Below are positions 27,668 to 51,880 of a stretch of DNA of 64,000 bases, piece after piece. Under the pieces are notes generated by a model. That model searched no databases. It was not told the DNA's origin and was given only the letters and a program-made list of their open reading frames with translations. The position numbers were made by a program, and so were the translations under genes. Location of the stretch: the NCBI GenBank assembly GCA_037447655.1, contig JBBHKE010001457.1, forward strand, positions 1 to 64,000, in the 5' to 3' direction. Positions within the stretch are counted from its first letter, which is position 1; each line of letters opens with the position of its first letter. The DNA is from Zygnema cylindricum (Eukaryota; Streptophyta; Zygnematophyceae; Zygnematales; Zygnemataceae).

Positions 27668-30600
27668 TACCTTCAATCGAGAAGCTCTCTCTGCCCTCCT
27701 TATTCCACTCGCTTTTGCCAAGTTATGTCCTCCTTGTGGACTACAGCTCTCCCCTTCTCCGATCTGAGAACACTCCTCTACTCCTCTCTCTCCTCCACCC
27801 GACGCTGATTTCTTCTGAACCTCGTGTCCCTCTTCTCCTCCGGCTTGTCCTTCTCTCAAGCCTCCTCCACTCTCTCCTCGTTCCTCCGCCCTCCCTCCTC
27901 CCTTCCCCTTCTCGGTCATCCCTCCCACCTGCATAACCGGAGGGGTAGAGGGAGGAGCTCCCCCCATAGGAATACCAGAAATACTCCCATTTACCACATT
28001 TCCCTGTAAAGCCCACCAAGCAGAAGCCGCAGCCATAATTGACGCTACCTTCCCTTCCTCTCCTTCTCCAGGAGAAGGAGAGGAATTTACCACTCCTCCC
28101 TCTCCTCCTCCTCCTCCTCCACCACCCCACATAGACATCGCAGCCATGGCTGCCGGATCGTGAGGTCCTGGACCTCCCCAAAGCCCGAAAGGGGAGAGAG
28201 AGGGAGGGAGAGAGGGAGGAGCCGGTCCTCGAGACGCGAAACTCGCCATTTGGTTTAAATGAGCTTCGTAAGCTGCAAAAGATGGGTGGTGTCTGGGGGG
28301 TGGAGGGAAAGGGAAGGAGGGAGGAAGGAAGAAGGGAGAGTGGAGGAGAGAAGCTTCCATGGGATTGGCCATGGCTGCCATCATTTGATACTGAGAGTGC
28401 GAATATTCGAAGGGAGGAGATGGAGAATATTCCATGGAGTTGTTATTTGGGCCCCTTTGAGCCTCGAAATGGGGCGGAAAATTTGAATAAATACCACGAT
28501 AATGATGATTTTGTTGGTCGAACAATTGGGCGTTCATCCGATGTTGTGTGCTTTGAAGATTTTGAGGAATTTGGGAATTATTATGCGAATTCGATCCGTT
28601 TTGGTACCACCCTAAAACTCCTCCTCCTCCTCCTCCTTCCTCCTTCACGACAATGTTGCTCGTTCCCTCCATCGACAATCCCGATTCGATCATCGATTTC
28701 TCCGACTGGGACGGAATCCCAGGAACTCTCTCTCTTTCCCTCTCGCTCTCCCTCTCTCCTCCTCTCCCTCCTCCACCACCGCTCTCTCCTCCTCCTCCCT
28801 CACCTCCCGACCCGCCTCCACTTTCAATCGAAGTCGCTCTTCTTGGGACAAAGGCACTCTCTCCGGTCCTAAACCCTGTCCCTACATCCCCACTACTGGA
28901 AACTCTCACAAGTCCCGCCGGCAAATTTCCGAGAGTGAGAGAGGCTGCCCGGTGGGCCGTCGGTACGACCAAAGTTTGTCCGAAAAGTTTCACACTGCCC
29001 GGAGATCCTGCGCCGTTTGGCAATTGGGCAGCGAAAACATTTCCGGTCTGCCCCAAAGAAAGCTCTCCTCCTCCTCCTCCGACTACTATTCCTGGTTCTG
29101 CCGGTGTTGGTCCTCCTACACCTCCCACCACTACTCCTACTCCCTGTGACATCCGTCCAGCGAGATTGGAGCGTAGATTTCCAGCACCAGTTTGCATTCT
29201 TCCGGCATAAGGGAAAAAGCCTCCACTCCCATGGGCTGGCTTAGATCTCTGTAAAAAAGAGAGACAGACAGACAGGGAGAAAAGAAAGAAAGAAAACATG
29301 AGGAAACATTCAGCGGGAGAAAAAAATGCAAAAAGAGTTGACTGTGGGAACTAAGATGGTTTTGCGGGATGTTGGTTCTCTTTTGAGATAACCTCCAAAA
29401 ACAAACAAACCAAACAATAGAGTGAGGGAGCTCAAAAGAAAAGAGGGATAGACAGAGGAGAGTGACAGACAGCCAGCGAGGGCTTAACAGAGAAATGGAA
29501 GATGAGACAAAAACTGATGGACAGAGACTGAGGAAAGTGGCAGATAGAGAAAAAGAAAGAGACAGAGAGAGGCAGGGACAAAGACAGAGAGATAAGAGGG
29601 ATAGAGACAGAGAGATAGAGAGACGAAAACAGATTAGTACAGAAACAGTCAGAGACAGAGAGAGAAAGAAAGAGAGACGGACAGAAATGAAGTGATCGAA
29701 AACGAGAAAGAAAAACAGACAGAGAAGACAAAAAACAGAGACACAGAGACGAAGAAAGACAATAGGAAAGAAGGGACAGCAGAAGAACAGAACAGAGACA
29801 AAGAAGACAAGAGAAAAACAGACAGAGACAAAGAGACAGAGTAGGACACAAAGATTGGGACTGTCACAACCAAGGAGACAAGTGGTCGAGAGAGGGAGAG
29901 AGAGGGAGAAAACACTTACCACTCCCAATTCCTCTCCGGCCAGAGTAGCAGCTATAGTGCAATCCAAATGTGTGGGAGGAGCCGACGCCATACGAGGCAA
30001 CATTCTCCCTCCCCTCCCTCCCTCCTCCCTCCCAATATCTTCATCTCTCTCTCTCTCCCTCTCTCCTGGACTCCCATTTGCTGCTGCTTTCCGAGGATAA
30101 GGATGACTCGGTTTTCTTTTGGGTCGGGGGGGAGGGATGTCGATATCAGGCAGGGAGGGGTGGGAAACAGTCCCATTGGGAGACGCCATTTCACGCTCCA
30201 ACTGTACAAAAAAAAAAAAAAAACAACAAAAAAGAAGGGAAAACAGAAAAAAGGGAAATAGGTTGTTAGAAAATTGAAATAAGAGTCGGAGATCAAATTC
30301 CAAAGTGAAGTAGACACAAGCAGAGCAATGGCGAAAATAGCAAGGATAGGGAGAGAGAGAGGACAAAAGAGGAAAGGAAAAGGGAAAATGACAAACTTTG
30401 GAAAAGAATTTTTGGGCATGGCTTCGAATTTGGACCGCAGTTTTGGTCCCGATGTGTTCTGCAGAAAAGGAATTCAATATTTTGTAAAGAGAAAGTACAA
30501 ATAGACTTTTTTTTATGATTCTAAATTAATATTTAACTGTCATATGCATAAATCTAAGACAAATACGATGGAGGAAAGAATCGGGGAAAAAAACAATTAC

Positions 30601-41192: not shown

Positions 41193-42356
41193 TGAAATTC
41201 TATGGGCTCCATTGCCACACAGAATTCGCAGGTCCAAAGGAAGCTAATCTAGATAGTGCCGACTCTAACTTGATATAAACCCAGATGACTGACCCCTTAA
41301 CAATCAGAACCCCAATATAGCTTCACCCTTGTGAATTAACACTTTTTGTGTGCTCAGTTCCACCACAGAATGCAAAGTTAGAATAAGAGATTTGGACACA
41401 TTCACCCACTTTGACTTTCCCTAAGAAATGCAGCCACCCAGGCAGGCAAAGACTCTGACCGACTACACCCCTGTGTAGCCTGGACTCCCCTGAGTCCGCA
41501 GCAACAAGAATCACTGAATTTGGTCAACTGAATTGATAGTTATGGTTGGCCAAAGTTTGCCATTTATACAAGGTGTTCTCTGGGAGAGGCATCTACCTAC
41601 CAGAAATATTCTAAGTTCTAGTCCTTCTCTAAACCCCTTCTACTGAAGTACGGCGCCAATCACAGGACTGTACCGTAGATAAAAGTACAGGCGCCGGAGT
41701 ACTTTCTGTACGGAAATTGTACGACAAGACCATACGAGTGACAAATGTCACACCCAAACTTGTTATCTTGCGCTCCGGAGATTCCGCAATCCTCCAGCGC
41801 ATTTCCACGTGTCATCCGGAGTGGCGGCGTCAAAAAACGCCAAGGCGGCCATTCCGGAATCTCGGCTAGCACCACGGCCGTCGATTAAATCTGGTATCCA
41901 TTCTTACCCGTCGAAAATAAGTGCGCGGTATTTGTTTCGCCGTCGAAACAAATGCGCGGTATCAATTCCGCGTAAACCATACTTCACTAAACTGTTTCTA
42001 TGTACTAAGGATCTTTTTGCGCCGTTAAATGAATTCGTCTACGTGTACATATTTATATAAATATCAAACCCTATATGTCCTAGCACTAGTCCTAGACCAA
42101 ACGGACAAAGCTAACGGCTACATTGACGGACGGCAAGTACCAGGATCAATTCCTGGGTCCGTCAATACTTTAAGTAAATCCATCTATTTTCTGCTAACTG
42201 TCTGCTACAAAGCTTTAGGCAGCCATGGCCCTATCACCCTACCCAGCCTTCAGTGACTACAACAAGTGTGGGGGCTTGGTAAAGGGAGTTAGAGGTAGAC
42301 TGCCTCTACATTTTTCCTATTATAATACAGACCTAGAAAATACTCAAATATCAACA
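41193..42356 (-). mobile_element. Copia family B LTR, minus orientation
   Basis: On the minus strand it starts TGTTGATATTTGAG and ends CATAGAATTTCA, matching the family B LTRs at 47469, 50847 and 52815. 1164 bp. Flanks are CCCTC and CCTAT, not a clean duplication. The left side is the CCCTCC tract, and a short CCTATCTCCCTC piece of the same character lies on the right, so it may have landed in that repeat. It contains a tRNA-arm-like hairpin (see 42125). Confidence 0.8.
42125..42163 (+). repeat. Acceptor/T-arm-like hairpin within the family B LTR
   Basis: GACGGAC (42125-42131) pairs perfectly with GTCCGTC (42157-42163). Inside it CCAGG pairs with CCTGG around a 7-nt loop, so it looks like a tRNA acceptor plus T arm with an 8-nt bulge and no D or anticodon arms. 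A partial version occurs in the LTR at 47469. Confidence 0.5.
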
Positions 42357-42787
42357 CCTATCTCCCTCGGGTAACCGTTACTACGGTTATTATCTTGACT
42401 AACGAGAACGCATCCTACCAATACGTCACTATACCTCAAAACCCTAATTATTACTTTATAAAAACCTGCTTAATGGAACACTATTTTTTATTACACTAAA
42501 ATACATAACAATGTTATTCAGATATTTCCAGATATTGAACCGTACACAAAACGTTCCAACCATACACAAAATGTTCGAGATGCTTAGTCAGCGAGAGTCT
42601 CTAAAATCCAACCGAATGTGGTCGTATAGTACGAAGCACGTGAGTGCTTCGTCACTTGTGGTCCCACACGAATCACGCTTGTTGTTGGATTGGCACGTGA
42701 AGCCGGTCCAATACGGGGTAGAATATGGAAATATCCATACTCGAGCCGCCCGTAATAAATGGGTACGGACCCGCCAGTCTCAACATC

Positions 42788-42859
42788 GAACTGGTGGCAC
42801 AGTGGTAGTGCGTTCGCAGCTGAAGTGAAAGGTCCCAGGTTCGAACCCTGGCCGGCTCA
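42788..42859 (+). tRNA. tRNA-like cloverleaf in TRIM LTR 1
   Basis: 72 nt folding as 7-bp acceptor, 4-bp D stem, 5-bp anticodon stem, 5-nt variable loop, 5-bp T stem, plus a discriminator A. A box TGGCACAGTGG and B box GGTTCGAACCC match consensus exactly. In this copy acceptor position 3 is A, giving one mismatch. The anticodon loop AGCTGAA puts CTG at 34-36 but G at 33. A TTTT run follows two bases downstream. Confidence 0.75.
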
Positions 42860-43073
42860 ATTTTCCCAAGTGTGGGACATGCCGAATCCCGGATTTCTAG
42901 GAAATCTAACATGGTATCGGAGCCAGCGGGATTGCGGATGGTTTGACCGGCTTTCCCGTGAGGGGGGGTGTTGGATTGGCACGTGAAGCCGGTCCAATAC
43001 GGGGTAGAATATGGAAATATCCATACTCGAGCCGCCCGTAATAAATGGGTACGGACCCGCCAGTCTCAACATC

Positions 43074-43145
43074 GAGCTGGTGGCACAGTGGTAGTGCGTT
43101 CGCAGCTGAAGTGAAAGGTCCCAGGTTCGAACCCTGGCCGGCTCA
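43074..43145 (+). tRNA. tRNA-like cloverleaf in TRIM LTR 2
   Basis: Same 72-nt cloverleaf, with all acceptor positions paired (one G-T). Canonical A and B boxes, TTTT shortly after the 3' end. G33 instead of the invariant U33 argues against a normal decoding tRNA. Confidence 0.78.
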
Positions 43146-43359
43146 ATTTTCCCAAGTGTGGGACATGCCGAATCCCGGATTTCTAGGAAATCTAACATGG
43201 TATCGGAGCCAGCGGGATTGCGGATGGTTTGACCGGCTTTCCCGTGAGGGGGGGGTGTTGGATTGGCACGTGAAGCCGGTTCAATACGGGGTAGAATATG
43301 GAATATCCATACTCGAGCCGCCCGTAAGAAAAGGGTACGGACCCGCCAGTCTCAACATC

Positions 43360-43431
43360 GAGCTGGTGGCACAGTGGTAGTGCGTTCGCAGCTGAAGTGA
43401 AAGGTCCCAGGTTCGAACCCTGGCCGGCTCA
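43360..43431 (+). tRNA. tRNA-like cloverleaf in TRIM LTR 3
   Basis: Identical to the copy in LTR 2 although the LTR sequence upstream of it has changed at several positions, so the cloverleaf is the better preserved part. Confidence 0.78.
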
Positions 43432-43855
43432 ATTTTCCCAAGTGTGGGACATGCCGAATCCCGGATTTCTAGGAAATCTAACACTTGTGGTCCCTCGTGA
43501 ATCACGCTTGTGGTCCCAAGTGAATCGCGTCCGTTGGAACAAATTCAATCGACAATGGTACCGTTGAACTATACCATTTATTTCCGAAATACCCGGTTTA
43601 GATCCCGTTCGTCTGATCTTGTGAATCATATTGTCAACTGCGTGACGTGTGTGGCTGACCGTCGACGCCACTCCAAAAAACCTGCATTCGTTCTTTTGCT
43701 GACACGTGTCCATGTAAAAGTACAATACACTCTATTGTACTTTTTGTTACTGTAACGCTTATTAAAGTAGGTAAGTATTACAGTAGACTATTTAGAAAAA
43801 TAATCTAAGTACCCCTATTTACTAAAATATAGATTTTATAAATTACAACACTCCC

Positions 43856-44956
43856 CTAAATCATTAGACTTAGTAACTCACTTAGTCCAATAACATCTCT
43901 GCAAAACTGTAACTTAGGATCAGGAAGTGCTTTTGTTAACATGTCAGCTACCATCTTCTCGTCCGGTAAAATAACATAACTTAACGACTTTTGCAAGTAC
44001 TTTTTCTCTAACAAAGTGAAGTCTAACATCCATGTGTTTACTCTTAAAGTGATGTCTGGGGTTAGAGGCAATTGCAATGGCTGCCTCGTTGTCACACCAG
44101 ATAGCTTGAGGACTAGTTTGCATATACCCAAGTTCTTGTAAAATAGACTTGACCCATAGGAGCTCTTTGAGGGCGAAAGCTGCTGCCATATATTCTGACT
44201 CCATTTGGATTGAGCTGTAACCTTATGTAATTTACTACCCCAACAACAAGTTCCGTCTCCAATTTTCAAAACAAAGCCGGTCCTAGATTTCCGACTTGGC
44301 ATGTCTCCATAGCTAGCATTGCTCCGCGTCTGTGTTTTCACCTCTCCTCCTCCGAGTACAAGCTTAAGATTTCGAGTACTTGCAAGATATCTCAGTACCC
44401 TTTTTGCTGCTTCCCAGTCTGCCTTTTTAGGATTCTGCAAACTTCTACTCAAGACCCCCACAGCTGCTGCAATATCAGGTCTCGTACAATTCATAAAATA
44501 TATAAGACTTCTAACTACCTGTCTATATGGCTTTGAAGCCATAAACTCCTCCTCCCCTGACTCTAGACTCTCACACACTATAATGCTTGACTCTGAATCC
44601 CTTCCTTCCAATTTTTGCCTAAATTTCATGGGAGTTATAAATCCCTTTACATCTTTCATTTCAAATCTTTCAAACATGTTACCTATTGTTTCTTTCTGAG
44701 TTAACATAATCAGCCTTTTGTTTCTGTCTCTTTCTACCTGTATTCCTAAAATATACTTGGCCTCACCGAGGTCCTTCATCTCGAACCTAGACCTTAAAGT
44801 CGCTTTAATGCGGTTTATTTCATCCATTGACTTACTTATTAATAATAAGTCATCCACATATACAACAATGTATAGTATTTCCACGGGAAGGATTTCCAGA
44901 AAAGCCTTTGTGATACTGGCTTTGCTGCCAACCTGGCCTGTATAAACTTGTTTCAT
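43856..44956 (-). pseudogene. Copia reverse transcriptase C-terminus and RNase H (family A)
   Basis: Contains the YVDD active-site motif (VVYVDDLLLIS), FEMKDLGEAKYILGIQVERD, FMNCTRPDIAAAVGVLSRS and RVLRYLASTR. The RNase H part (MESEYMAAAFALKELLWV, WCDNEAAIAIA) is in a shifted frame at 44204-43944. The N-terminal half of RT and all upstream pol domains are absent. Ends next to the 3' LTR. Confidence 0.85.
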
Positions 44957-45197
44957 TAGCCTACTTCAGTTTAGGACAGTATCTGTATCCATGGCCCTTC
45001 TCAGAACAATAAAAACAAGTAGTAGTTGATGACCTAATCTGTCTCTTATTAAACTGATTTTGATTCTGGTTAAATTGACTCCTGTTCTGATTAATTTGAT
45101 TTCTTTTGTCAAAGTCTGTGGCAAATGCTTCAAACTTTCATTCTCTTTCAAGGAGTTTAGTATTAGTCTCTTCCTCTAATATAAGATTATACGTTAA

Positions 45198-45761
45198 CTA
45201 AAATGACCAGCTAGCTTTATCATGACTCTTTAATTGAACAGACACACCCTTCATGCTACTAGGGAGACCTCTAATAAGCAGAGCTGCTTGTTGAAACTCA
45301 GGAAATGACCCCTCAGCAGAAGAGTGAGCATCAATAAGGGCACAAAAATTGTCACAATACCCGACCATAGTTCCCCCCGAGTATTTGTTTCCCCAAATTT
45401 TTCCAGCCACCAGCAACTCCTCTTGAACATTCGGTTTCTCAAAAACGGATTTTAGTGATGTCCAAATCTCACTCGCCTTCTTCATTTTCAGGCGAGACAT
45501 GACCAAATTTTTTAAAATACAAAAAATCAGATTGTTCCTTGCCATTGAATTCTTTTTCGCCCAAGATGGATTTGTTTCATCAAGGGAGCCACCCAAGACC
45601 CCCAACAAGTCAACAGTTTCGAACGACGATTCAACCATCGCGGCCCAGTAAGCATACTTTTGGCCATTTAAGATACGAATTCTTGACGAAAGGCCCATAA
45701 CCTGTTGTTCTACAACCACCGTTGCAAGAGGAGAACCAGCAGTAGTAGTGGAAGTAGACAT
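45198..45761 (-). pseudogene. Copia GAG polyprotein fragment (family A)
   Basis: 187 codons from MSTSTTTAG; typical Copia GAG architecture (LNGQKYAYWAAMVESSF, later AGKIWGNKYSGG). The frame then breaks, but a CCHC zinc knuckle (CFYCSEKGHGYRYC) follows at about 44985-45030 in another frame. It would form the retrotransposon particle; here it is inactive. Confidence 0.8.
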
Positions 45762-46363
45762 GAAAAACAGTGGAAAGAATCAAAGTACCTACTCAACAAC
45801 CAACTTTGAACATACACAAAATATGACTCAGATAACCAAAATGCCTCAAATTTGCCACAGTGATAAACAATACAGTAAACTAACAATTCCCAAAATTGCT
45901 GCTTAAATGACTTAGTAAACCATAAGATATGATGTGTGGACGTTTCCCAAAAACTGCCCTTACAAAATCATATTGCCCAATACCGAATACTACAAAATTG
46001 GCTAAGTCCTAAGTTATATACTCACAGTGTGTATCTACTGATCTACACTAATTTGGGTAACCGTTATTACAGTTATTATCTTGACTAACGACAAAGCATA
46101 TACATGTACGTCATTGTAGCTTAAAAACCCTAATTATTATTTTCTAAAATCCTGATTAATGGAACACTATTTTTTATTACACTAAACTAAAAACCAATGT
46201 TATTTAGATATTTACAGATATTGAACCGTACACAAAACTTTCCAACCGTACACCAAACGTTCCAAATAAATAGTCAGCGTTAATCGCTAAAGTCCAGCCG
46301 AATCTGGTTGTGTAGTACGAAACACTTGAGTGCTTCGTCACTTGTGGTCCCACGCGAATCATG

Positions 46364-46368
46364 CTTGT
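46364..46368 (+). other. Paralogous empty site of the TRIM insertion
   Basis: CTTGT within the 5' LTR of family A at the position equivalent to the TRIM insertion in the 3' LTR; surrounding words (GTCACTTGTGGTCCCAC, GTGGTCCCTCGTGAATCAC) match the sequence on both sides of the TRIM. Confidence 0.85.
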
Positions 46369-46740
46369 GGTCCCTCGTGAATCACGTATGTGGTCTTGGG
46401 TGAATCGCGTCTATTGGAGCAAATTCGATCGACGATGGTACCGTTGAAGTGTACCATATGTTTCTAGAATACCCGGGTCAGATCCCGTTCTTTCGATCAT
46501 GTGAATCGAATCGTCAACTATTTTGACACGTATGGCTGACTGTCGGCACCACTCCGAAAAAACTACATACGTTCTTTCGCCGACACGTGTCCCTACAAAA
46601 GTACGATACACTATACTGTATTGTTTCCTACTACAACGCTAATAAAGGTAAGTATTACAGTAGACTATTAGGAAAATATCCTAAGTTATTTTTACCCCTA
46701 TTTACTGAAATAAAAATTTATATATTACAACATTTGAGAC

Positions 46741-49700
46741 TAGCACTAGGAAGGGAACCTTTATTGCTAGCTTTGAGGAGGAAGTTTATTTCTTTGCTGA
46801 AAAAGGTAGCCAAGGGATGTTTAGGCTGATTTTAAGGAATGAAAAGAAGAAACTTTACTATGCTCGTGTTCATGATATTATGTTGTGGCATAAGAGGCTT
46901 GGACATATGCATTTAGATAAGTTGAAAGAAATGAAAAAGATGGGAATAGTGGAAGGAATTAAGTTTGGAGAAAGTGAAAACCTAAGTGACTATAGTGGTT
47001 GTGCTCAAGGTAAGGCACACAGGTTACCCCTTCCCAAAAGAAGCCACTTATAAAGGGGACAAAGTGTTAAACTTGGTACACACTGATATTTGGGGACCGG
47101 CCAAAGTGCCCTTACCCAATGGTAAAAGGTTTATGATGACAATCACTAACGATTGGTCTCGATTCTCTAGAGTGTATTTATTGAAAAATAAATCAAAGGC
47201 CCCACAGGTTTTTAAGGAATATATGGCATGGAGTGAGAAACTACATGAAACTTCTATTAAGAGAGTAGGGAGTGATAATTGGGAAGAGTTAACCTCCAAT
47301 CAGTTTGAGGATTTTCTGAGAGAAGATGGAGTGCAACACCAAAAGACAGTTCTTGAAAATCCTGAGCAGAATGGTGTAGCCGAGAGGTTAAATAGAACAC
47401 TATGTGATAGTGCCAGGAGTATGCTATCAGATAAGAAGATAGGAAAGAGATTTTGCGTCGAAACTATGTGTTCATATTTGAGTATTTTCTAGGTCTGTAT
47501 TGGGATAGAAAAGAGCAAAGGTTGTTTGCCTCTAACTCCCCTCTCCAAGCCCCCACACTTGTCGTAGTCACTGAAGGCTAGATAAGGAGCTAGAGCCATG
47601 TTTGCATGAGCTCACTAGACAAGACAAGGGGTGAATTGGATAGATTTACCAAAAGGTACTTGACGGACCCAGGAATTGATCTGGGTACCTGCCGTTCGTA
47701 AAGTCACCCATAGCAGATAGCTTTGTCTGTTTGGTCTAGGACTACTGCTAAGGTTTATTGGGTTTGATACATATTTAAACATGTACACGTAGGTTTTTCA
47801 ATTTAACTAGATTACGGTTTTTAGGGCATAGAAACAGTTGTACTATTATTACCGAACGAAACAAATAGTACAGACATATGTTTCGACGTTCCGTATTAAA
47901 TACCGATATAAATCGGACGGTCGTGGTTAGCCTCGGCTTCGCAAAAAAGACAATTTGGCGGTTTGCGGACTCCGCCACTCCAAATGACACGTGGTAACAT
48001 TGTACGGGTTTACGGAATCTCCGGAACGGAAGACACAAAATCTGGATGTGACAAATGTCGCATTATGGCGACGTCGTACAATGTCCATACAGAAAGTACT
48101 CCGACATCTGTACTTTATTATACGATACAGTCTTTTGATTGGTCAGTACCTCACTACTAGGGGGTTTAGAGAGGCGTTTGGGACTTAAAATATTTTGGGT
48201 AGGTAGTCGCCTCTCCTAGAGAGCATCTTGTATAAAAGGCAATCTTTGGCGATCCATAAAAAATAATTTACTTGACCATTTTAAGTGATTTTTTTTGCTG
48301 CCAAATCAACGGAGTCCAAGCTACATAGGGGTGTAGTCAGTGACAGATATTGCCTGCCAGGGTGGGTGAATTTCTAAGGGAAAGTCAAAGTGGGTGAATG
48401 TGTCCAAATCTCATATTCTAACTTTGCATTCTGTGGTGGAATTGAGCACACAGAAAGTCTTATTTCACAGGGGTGAAGCTCTAATGGGGTTCTAATTGTC
48501 AAGGGGTCAGTCATTTGGGTTTATATAAACTTGGAGTTGGCAATCTTTAGATTAACTTCTTTTGATCTGCAAATTCTGCGTGGAAATGGAGACCTTAGAA
48601 TTTCACTATGAACTGTGCAAATATCTCAAGAATAGAATTCGTACTTCGACACTAAAAGGCCAAACTCCTTATGAGAGATGGACTGGCAGAAAACCAGATG
48701 TTTCACACTTAAAGGTTTTTGGTAGTCAAGTATACAGCCTAGACACAGATCAGTCAAATTCCAAGTTGGATCTGAAAAGAAAACAAAGATATCTGTTACG
48801 ATATGATGGAGATGTAAAATGATATAGAGTCTATGATCTCAAGAGAGAAGATATAATCATAGTAAAGCATCTAGTGGTCATGGATGAAAAGAAATGCATA
48901 GATCTCTTTAAGCATACAAAGATAGTCAAAATAAGATTTGAGTGAGAAAATTCTGATGACTTTGAGCTTTCTAACAATCCATGTTTTCGAGAAGATGATA
49001 AACTTGTAGGTACAAATCAAACCGAGGAGGATTCAGCCGTGGAACCCCCAGTGCCAACTCCAACCGAAGCGGAAGACATGGTGGAAATAGACCTGGAATC
49101 GAGGGATAGGGGAGAAGTAAAAACTGTTTGAATGAATCCACGAGAGCCATCCATTCCAGCATTAGAGTTTGAGGGTGGAAGGAGAAGCAGCAAAAGATTG
49201 CAAGAGAAACAAGTTAACAACAAAGTAACGAAACTGTCTCATCCCGAAGAACCCCAAACTTATGATGAGGCAATGAAATGTCCTGAGAGGAACCGGTGGA
49301 AGACAACCATTAATGAGGAGATGGGTTCGATTATGGCAGCCAATACGTGGAAATCGGTGGAATTTCCCCTTGATAGGAAGCTAATCTCGTGTAAGTGGGT
49401 ATTCAATTTGAAACTCAACCTGGATAACACCATTGAGCGCTACAAGGCTCGGTTAATGGCGAAGGGATTTACCTTAAAAGAGGGAATTGACTACAAGGAG
49501 ACTTTTGCTCCGATCTTCAGGTTTCCCTCTGTTCAGATACTTCTCAGTATGGCGGCATAAGAAGACATGGAAGTGCATCAGATGGACATGAAGACGATCT
49601 TCTTACATAGAGAGTTAGAAGAGGAGATTTTTATGGGACAGCCGGATGGATTTGTGGAGCAAGGGGAGGAGAGCAAGGTATGACGATTGATCAAATCTTT

Positions 49701-50846: not shown

Positions 50847-51880
50847 TGTAGAAATTAATGGTTTTTTTAGTATTTTCTAGGTCTAAATTTAAATGCGGAA
50901 AAGAAGCCGAGGCAGTCTACCTCTAACTCCTCTCTTCAGCACCCACCCTTGTCGCAGTCACTAAAGGTTGAAGAGGGAGATAGAGCCATGGCTGCCTGTG
51001 TTATCCAGAGAGACAGGCAGAAGTTTTATAATTTATTAAATCTTTGGGACCCAGATTTGAATCGCAATTACCCCCTGGCTGCTAGCCCAATGATAGTTTT
51101 TATCCACAGTGGTAGTGCTGAGACATACTGGGTTTGACAAATATATAAACTGTTAGGCGTGAACTAATTCATTTAACGGCAACTATGGACAACGTGCATG
51201 GATACAATTTTGTAAAGTACGGAGTACGATACGGTTCCGAAATAGATACCACGTATTTTCTTTCGACAACAAAACAAATATTGCGCAACAATTTATAGAG
51301 GCTACGATTAAAACTCGGTATTGATCGGACGGCCGCGAAGGATGCCGAGATCGCGGAATGGGATTTTGGCGGTTTTTGGTCACCGCCACATCGATTAACA
51401 CGTGGCGCGACCACATTGAATTACAGCATCTACGGGGATTACAAGAACGAATCCAGATAAGACATGTGTCGACTAGTTGGCCATATGGTACGATGGCCGT
51501 ACAGAAAGTACATCGGCACCTATACATTTTTGTACGACACAGTATTTTGATTGGTGCGGTATTTCAGTAGATAGAGTTTTAAGGAGAGATAGGACTTAGG
51601 AAAATTTGGTAGATAGGACTTTCTCTCTTTTGAGCTTCTGTTCAAAAGGTCAACTTTGACCCACCATAAACTTACTGCTCAGGGGAGCAAATTCAGAGAT
51701 TCTTTTTGCTATCGACTTAAGGAGTCTAGCCTTCACAGGGGTGAAGGTGGTCATAGTTTTTGTTTGCCAGGGTGGTAGTTATTCTTGCTAAAACACAAAA
51801 GGGTCATGGTTTTCCTAGAGGCTTCGTGTGAGTTGCCTACTCTGGAGACCTATGGAGGTCTCTGAGTTGCACAACTTTCA
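50847..51880 (+). mobile_element. 3' LTR of Copia family B
   Basis: Follows a polypurine tract; begins TGTAGAAATT and shares TAGTATTTTCTAGGTCT and GTCGCAGTCACT-type words with the other family B LTRs. The right end is placed at AACTTTCA by analogy with AATTTCA in the other copies. Confidence 0.7.

Follow-up and report, generated by a model that had tools for sequence, protein, structure and literature searches.

Does a tRNA-like sequence inside a long terminal repeat (LTR) serve the retrotransposon that bears it, or is it only carried along? The question is raised by an array at positions 42683-43483 of a 64,000-nucleotide stretch of the genome of the alga Zygnema cylindricum (Zygnematophyceae; assembly GCA_037447655.1, contig JBBHKE010001457.1, positions 1 to 64,000), hereafter the window. 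A first-pass annotation, made from the letters alone, described the array as a terminal-repeat retrotransposon in miniature (TRIM) whose LTRs each contain a complete tRNA gene. This observation of the array is confirmed here, and we consider it probable that the element is a non-autonomous TRIM of the Helenus type, whose LTRs hold a central RNA polymerase III (Pol III) promoter derived from a tRNA, with the tRNA-like segment acting as the repeat (R) region. The base of this reading is directly observed, and consists of LTRs, a primer-binding site (PBS), a polypurine tract (PPT), 5-bp duplications together with an empty site, and copies that are dispersed and nearly identical, beside multi-LTR arrays and single LTRs.

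Results

Anatomy of the array

The array has the order LTR-interior-LTR-interior-LTR and a total of 801 bp (lengths of the parts in Table 1). Its LTRs have the inverted ends TGTT...AACA, the PBS TGGTATCGGAGCC adjoins the LTR 3' end, and a G-run PPT lies directly 5' of the next LTR, so that the layout proposed in the first-pass annotation was found in place; the 57 bp given there for the interior holds for the first one, while the second has 58 bp owing to an extra G in the PPT. LTR1 and LTR2 differ at a single base, and LTR3 has three substitutions relative to LTR2 and lacks one of its bases. The sole frame of at least 150 aa that overlaps the array is an antisense stop-to-stop frame of 164 aa.

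Each LTR carries a 72-nt segment that is recognized as a tRNA both by ARAGORN and by Rfam model RF00005 (gathering score 29), whereas of 50 shuffled versions of the window (first-order Markov) none gave an ARAGORN match. The 7-4-5-5 stems claimed for all three LTRs are fully paired in LTR2 and LTR3, but in LTR1 a G-to-A change disrupts the third acceptor pair. Box A (TGGCACAGTGG), box B (GGTTCGAACCC) and a TTTT placed two bases past the acceptor stem are present in every LTR, as had been noted. ARAGORN labels the three segments tRNA-Gln(CTG). However, U33 matters for the anticodon loop of a tRNA, and the loop here, AGCTGAA, lacks it, which makes a decoding tRNA unlikely; a working tRNA-Gln was rejected on this ground and because the segment gives scores of only -3 to -8 with host tRNA-Gln(TTG) sequences. 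The wording "tRNA gene" was thus too strong, and "tRNA-like sequence" is what stands. Fifty host loci, out of 63 places returned, yielded 33 different sequences by ARAGORN, of which tRNA-Arg(CCT), with a score of 27, and tRNA-Cys(GCA), with 19, came closest to the segment; among the tRNA types so sampled, the nearest are too distant for naming a parent. No A-tail is found 3' of the segment in the LTR sequence, where AATTTTCCC stands instead.

Insertion site

The array is an insertion, with a 5-bp duplication, into an LTR of an older Copia element. When the array and one CTTGT are removed from the interrupted Copia LTR region, what is left is 82% identical over 685 columns to the partner LTR of the same element, which is empty at this site and has its single CTTGT (46364-46368) at the matching position. 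The identity of the TRIM LTRs reaches 98.8% in two of the pairwise comparisons; the Copia LTRs are thus much more diverged from each other than the TRIM LTRs are, which fits a later insertion of the TRIM. At the border of the interrupted Copia LTR no TGGTATC motif was found, so this Copia is not supported as the mobilizer. Two pattern scans of viral contigs and one plasmid search gave no matches. The best matches of the window Copia are 30-42% identical and, among the 120 matches listed, the named organisms are plants or Closterium. On either side of the Copia element, 41235-42360 has diverged inverted copies at 47465-48564 and 50865-51607, which suggests further nested Copia insertions.

Table 1. 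Positions in the window of the parts of the array, its target site and the surrounding Copia element
Feature	Position	Strand	Remarks
Copia LTR region entered by the TRIM	42369-43850	-	
Left CTTGT	42678-42682		5-bp target-site duplication
LTR1	42683-42911	+	229 bp
tRNA-like segment of LTR1	42788-42859	+	ARAGORN; RF00005, 48.2 bits; one acceptor pair broken
TTTT after LTR1 segment	42861-42864	+	putative Pol III terminator
Interior 1	42912-42968	+	57 bp; PBS at start, G-run PPT at end
LTR2	42969-43197	+	229 bp
tRNA-like segment of LTR2	43074-43145	+	ARAGORN; RF00005, 53.6 bits
TTTT of LTR2	43147-43150	+	
Interior 2	43198-43255	+	58 bp
LTR3	43256-43483	+	228 bp
tRNA-like segment of LTR3	43360-43431	+	ARAGORN; RF00005, 53.6 bits
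TTTT of LTR3	43433-43436	+	
Right CTTGT	43484-43488		5-bp target-site duplication
Copia RVT_2	43856-44965	-	
Copia gag	45198-45779	-	
Partner Copia LTR	46055-46732	-	empty site

Copies in the genome

A search of the assembly to which the window belongs (353 Mb, 2689 contigs) with LTR1 gave at least 83 matches (40 of 977 first-look candidates scored). We read 39 loci, each on a contig of its own, of which 19 come from L001-L030 and 20 from L061-L080; since they were chosen by similarity to the query, the figures that follow describe this young group only. The 5-bp duplications whose search had been proposed were exact in 26 of the 39 loci (15/19 and 11/20 in the two sets, respectively). Most of the dispersed loci have two LTRs and measure about 515 bp, five hold a single LTR (L070, L074, L075, L076 and L077, with a duplication at L077 only), and another five carry multi-LTR arrays (L001, L003, L023, L065 and L066). 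Five LTR matches are present both in L065 (781-2088), where they are irregular and one LTR is partial, and in L066 (798-2169), where they are regular; one exact 5-bp duplication flanks each array.

In this similarity-chosen sample the cloverleaf travels with the element, and the condition under which the first-pass annotation would have called the link accidental did not arise: of 76 complete LTRs, 74 have a tRNA according to ARAGORN (71 Gln CTG, one Pro, one Ser and one unassigned). The same set has 70 LTRs with an unaltered box A, 73 with an unaltered box B and 74 that keep the CTCAATTTT end. Changes per base amount to 40/5400 in the tRNA part, 48/7875 in the unique 3' region (U3) and 23/3900 in the unique 5' region (U5), one divergent LTR (the 5' LTR of L028, described below) being left out. 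The family looks recently mobile.

Variation of the primer-binding site

The expression with which interiors were searched fixes PBS bases 1-7, so that interiors changed there or lost drop out. Among 39 interiors from 31 loci, PBS bases 8-9 were GG in 28, AG in six and AA in five, and at least one form other than GG was present in nine of the loci (L003, L007, L012, L018, L021, L028, L066, L068 and L072). Position 8 accumulated 11 changes and position 9 five, against nine in total for the rest of the first 50 positions, seven of which are held at zero by the expression; outside bases 8-9 the interior is nearly uniform. The PBS is a hotspot of mutation and may have been rewritten by primer tRNAs; copying from several primer tRNAs would leave such a trace. 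The primer is probably initiator tRNA-Met, to judge from the plant-type PBS.

The lesser, though by no means negligible, probability is that the variation reflects CpG decay or sister subfamilies. Indeed, the change from GG to AG falls at a CpG, and the AA copies L003, L012 and L018, together with L028, could belong to sister subfamilies. However, the PBS CpG was changed in 11 of 78 cases and the other four interior CpGs in only 1 of 312 (Fisher p ~1e-7, with the interiors of one array not being independent), and GG and AG occur together within a single array, L066, where one of the four interiors is not GG. Moreover, the AG form is the plant-type PBS, contained in the string TGGTATCAGAGC, with which Kalendar et al. 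searched for Cassandra, according to excerpts of their paper (2020, PMC7215508).

A copy with an exchanged tRNA half

Locus L028 (contig C66; 5' LTR 1213-1443, 3' LTR 1501-1729, duplication TGTTA) has LTRs that are identical to each other in their first 106 and last 85 bases, and in between 40 bp of the 5' LTR are replaced. The replaced stretch starts at base 2 of the tRNA, reaches the anticodon stem and provides a different tRNA-like 5' half, called Pro(CGG) by ARAGORN. The acceptor pairs and both boxes are kept (box sequence TAGCTCAGTTGG) and one D-stem pair is altered on both sides; there is also a mismatch in the anticodon stem, and the minimum-energy fold is not a cloverleaf. Its box A region matches host tRNA-Lys over 18 bases, in a part where the consensus is widespread. 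Template switching could account for this copy, and so could gene conversion, a misassembly or descent from a sister subfamily. Since the tRNA-like segment is proposed to be the R region, its exchange by reverse transcription can be conceived, and a highly speculative extension is that the segment is exchangeable with other tRNA-like RNAs as a modular promoter refreshed by template switching onto tRNAs, with L028 as a case perhaps caught in the act. If true, this refreshing of the promoter by tRNAs would parallel the apparent refreshing of the PBS by the primer.

Predicted RNA structure

LTR2 and LTR3 fold better than their shuffles (z -4.17, with 0/200 as good, and z -3.53, with 1/200, respectively). 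For the LTR2 segment alone, or for a short transcript from six bases upstream to the TTTT, the predicted fold is the exact cloverleaf. The predicted RNA of the whole LTR, on the other hand, does not contain it, and imposing the cloverleaf costs 11.8 kcal/mol with respect to the best fold (10.9 in LTR3). When both flanks were shuffled the mean cost was 1.9 and 11.8 was reached in 0/300 cases, to be compared with 1/300 when U3 alone was shuffled and 77/300 when U5 alone was; these results indicate that, by prediction, U3 works against the cloverleaf in the long RNA. One possible reading of the models is that the long RNA is thereby shielded from tRNA-processing enzymes. In a modelled RNA of 369 bases, with assumed ends, the two tRNA-like ends pair together, as any self-complementary end repeat could.

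Other features

In the window, 29137-30525 (minus strand) is a fragment of an LHY/REVEILLE-type Myb clock gene that matches land-plant proteins and one EukProt entry, which we take to be Spirogloea; a search with another part of this gene gave no matches. In the neighborhood of a tRNA-Lys(CTT) gene, positions 2261-2332 of L041 resemble tRNA-Lys with the anticodon CTA (Pyl for ARAGORN), perhaps a suppressor-like pseudogene.

Discussion

We propose that Pol III would start just 5' of the tRNA-like segment of the 5' LTR, directed by boxes A and B, sometimes pass the weak TTTT of that LTR and end at the TTTT of the 3' LTR. Both ends of the resulting short RNA would then be the tRNA-like segment, an R repeat of about 80 bases, TTTT included, on which the first strand transfer would rely. 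An autonomous LTR retrotransposon would supply the enzymes that copy this RNA, with a host tRNA, probably initiator tRNA-Met, as primer at the PBS, and that integrate the cDNA with 5-bp duplications. LTR-LTR recombination or the integration of multimeric cDNA could generate the multi-LTR arrays, a choice that the literature leaves open (excerpts of PMC11899658). The use of Pol III, the role as R and the partner element are thus inferred from the DNA. A precedent exists in Cassandra, where transcription runs from within the 5S sequence of the 5' LTR to within that of the 3' LTR, leaving an 18-base repeat (excerpts of Kojima 2024, PMC10886601), and for which transcripts reading through arrays have been reported (excerpts of PMC7215508).

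Several observations weigh against this proposal. The TTTT in the 5' LTR would halt some of the Pol III short of a full template, and the cloverleaf is disfavored in the predicted whole-LTR fold. No autonomous partner was found. An exact duplication is lacking in 13 of the 39 loci, which comprise five truncated copies (L003, L018, L064, L078 and L079), four single LTRs (L070 and L074-L076) and also four seemingly whole two-LTR copies (L007, L019, L068 and L069). Finally, in this young family the tRNA part appears no better conserved than its surroundings, so that selection on the segment is unsupported by the sequences; such an equal divergence is expected of dead copies.

Some of these points would suit an ordinary TRIM driven by Pol II, in which a tRNA or a short interspersed nuclear element (SINE) was passively inserted, copied once into both LTRs and given no role in transcription. 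This is a rather unlikely alternative, in whose favor are the lack of better conservation in the tRNA part, the 11.8 kcal/mol by which the whole-LTR fold disfavors the cloverleaf and also Kojima's proposal (PMC10886601) that such elements arose when a SINE inserted into an LTR. Against it stand the joint occurrence of box A, box B, a full cloverleaf and a well-placed T-run, the absence of an A-tail 3' of the segment and the L028 5' LTR, where a different tRNA-like half is present with acceptor pairs and both boxes kept, which suggests that the tRNA form matters. As for three genuine tRNA genes clustered in tandem with repeated spacers and no retrotransposon, a reading that the uniform tRNA-Gln(CTG) label might evoke, its probability is practically nil, for it is refuted by the exact duplication and empty site and by the dispersed copies, most of those read having two LTRs, and is further opposed by the PBS and PPT in every unit, the loop without U33 and the poor host tRNA-Gln scores.

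The Helenus-type reading leads us to the position of the element among known ones. That it is a TRIM with a tRNA-like sequence in its LTR is borne out by the window and its copies. The idea that no such family had been described is not, because Kojima (2024, Biology 13:119, PMC10886601) has named Helenus the TRIMs with tRNA-derived LTR sequence and grouped them with Cassandra as TRIMp3. The families listed there come from fungi, from six phyla of animals and, among plants, from Selaginella moellendorffii only, and Pol III transcription of Helenus is expected, without validation. The screen applied to it used a size below 1000 bp, and most families have box A TRGCY...YGG and box B GGTTC. By structural features, we judge the Zygnema elements to be a new family of this kind: they share the tRNA-derived sequence, the two LTRs, the size below 1000 bp, the PBS and PPT between the LTRs, a 5-bp duplication as in plants and fungi, the tandem arrays (noted for the zebrafish family LTR-11_DR, PMC10886601) and the two boxes, although the fifth base of box A is A (TGGCA) and not Y. 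The Selaginella Helenus, also with 5-bp duplications, differs in its dimensions (LTR 120 bp and interior 85 bp, versus 229 and 57 bp here).

Cassandra has in common with the Zygnema elements a Pol III-type promoter in the LTR, a TGGTATC-type PBS and arrays of about three LTRs (excerpts of PMC7215508). Its LTR sequence, however, derives from 5S rRNA and not from a tRNA, and its RNA end repeat has 18 bases (excerpts of PMC10886601) versus the approximately 80 predicted here; no 5S rRNA was found in the window, where an Rfam scan at gathering thresholds gave the three tRNA matches only. Three-LTR, two-interior arrays are also shared with tandem plant TRIMs, being the commonest type in maize (L3I2, 63 of 93, with target duplications; excerpts of Gao et al. 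2016, PMC4717578), but the terms "tRNA gene" and "tRNA-like" are absent from the main text of that paper. With tRNA-derived SINEs the likeness is confined to the tRNA-like head with A and B boxes, since LTRs, PBS, PPT and 5-bp duplications are present here and AATTTTCCC takes the place of the A-tail. A search of the open-access literature gave, among the matches listed, no second plant report of TRIMs with a tRNA in the LTR, and a 2026 meeting report, in its available part, merely cites Kojima.

Conclusions

A young family is added here to Helenus/TRIMp3, for which Kojima (PMC10886601) gives one plant species. Its near-identical copies, variant PBS and arrays make testable the use of Pol III, the passage of the 5' LTR terminator and the identity of the priming tRNAs. 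In addition, LTRs of this kind can inflate the count of tRNA genes, as Kojima showed for rust fungi (PMC10886601).
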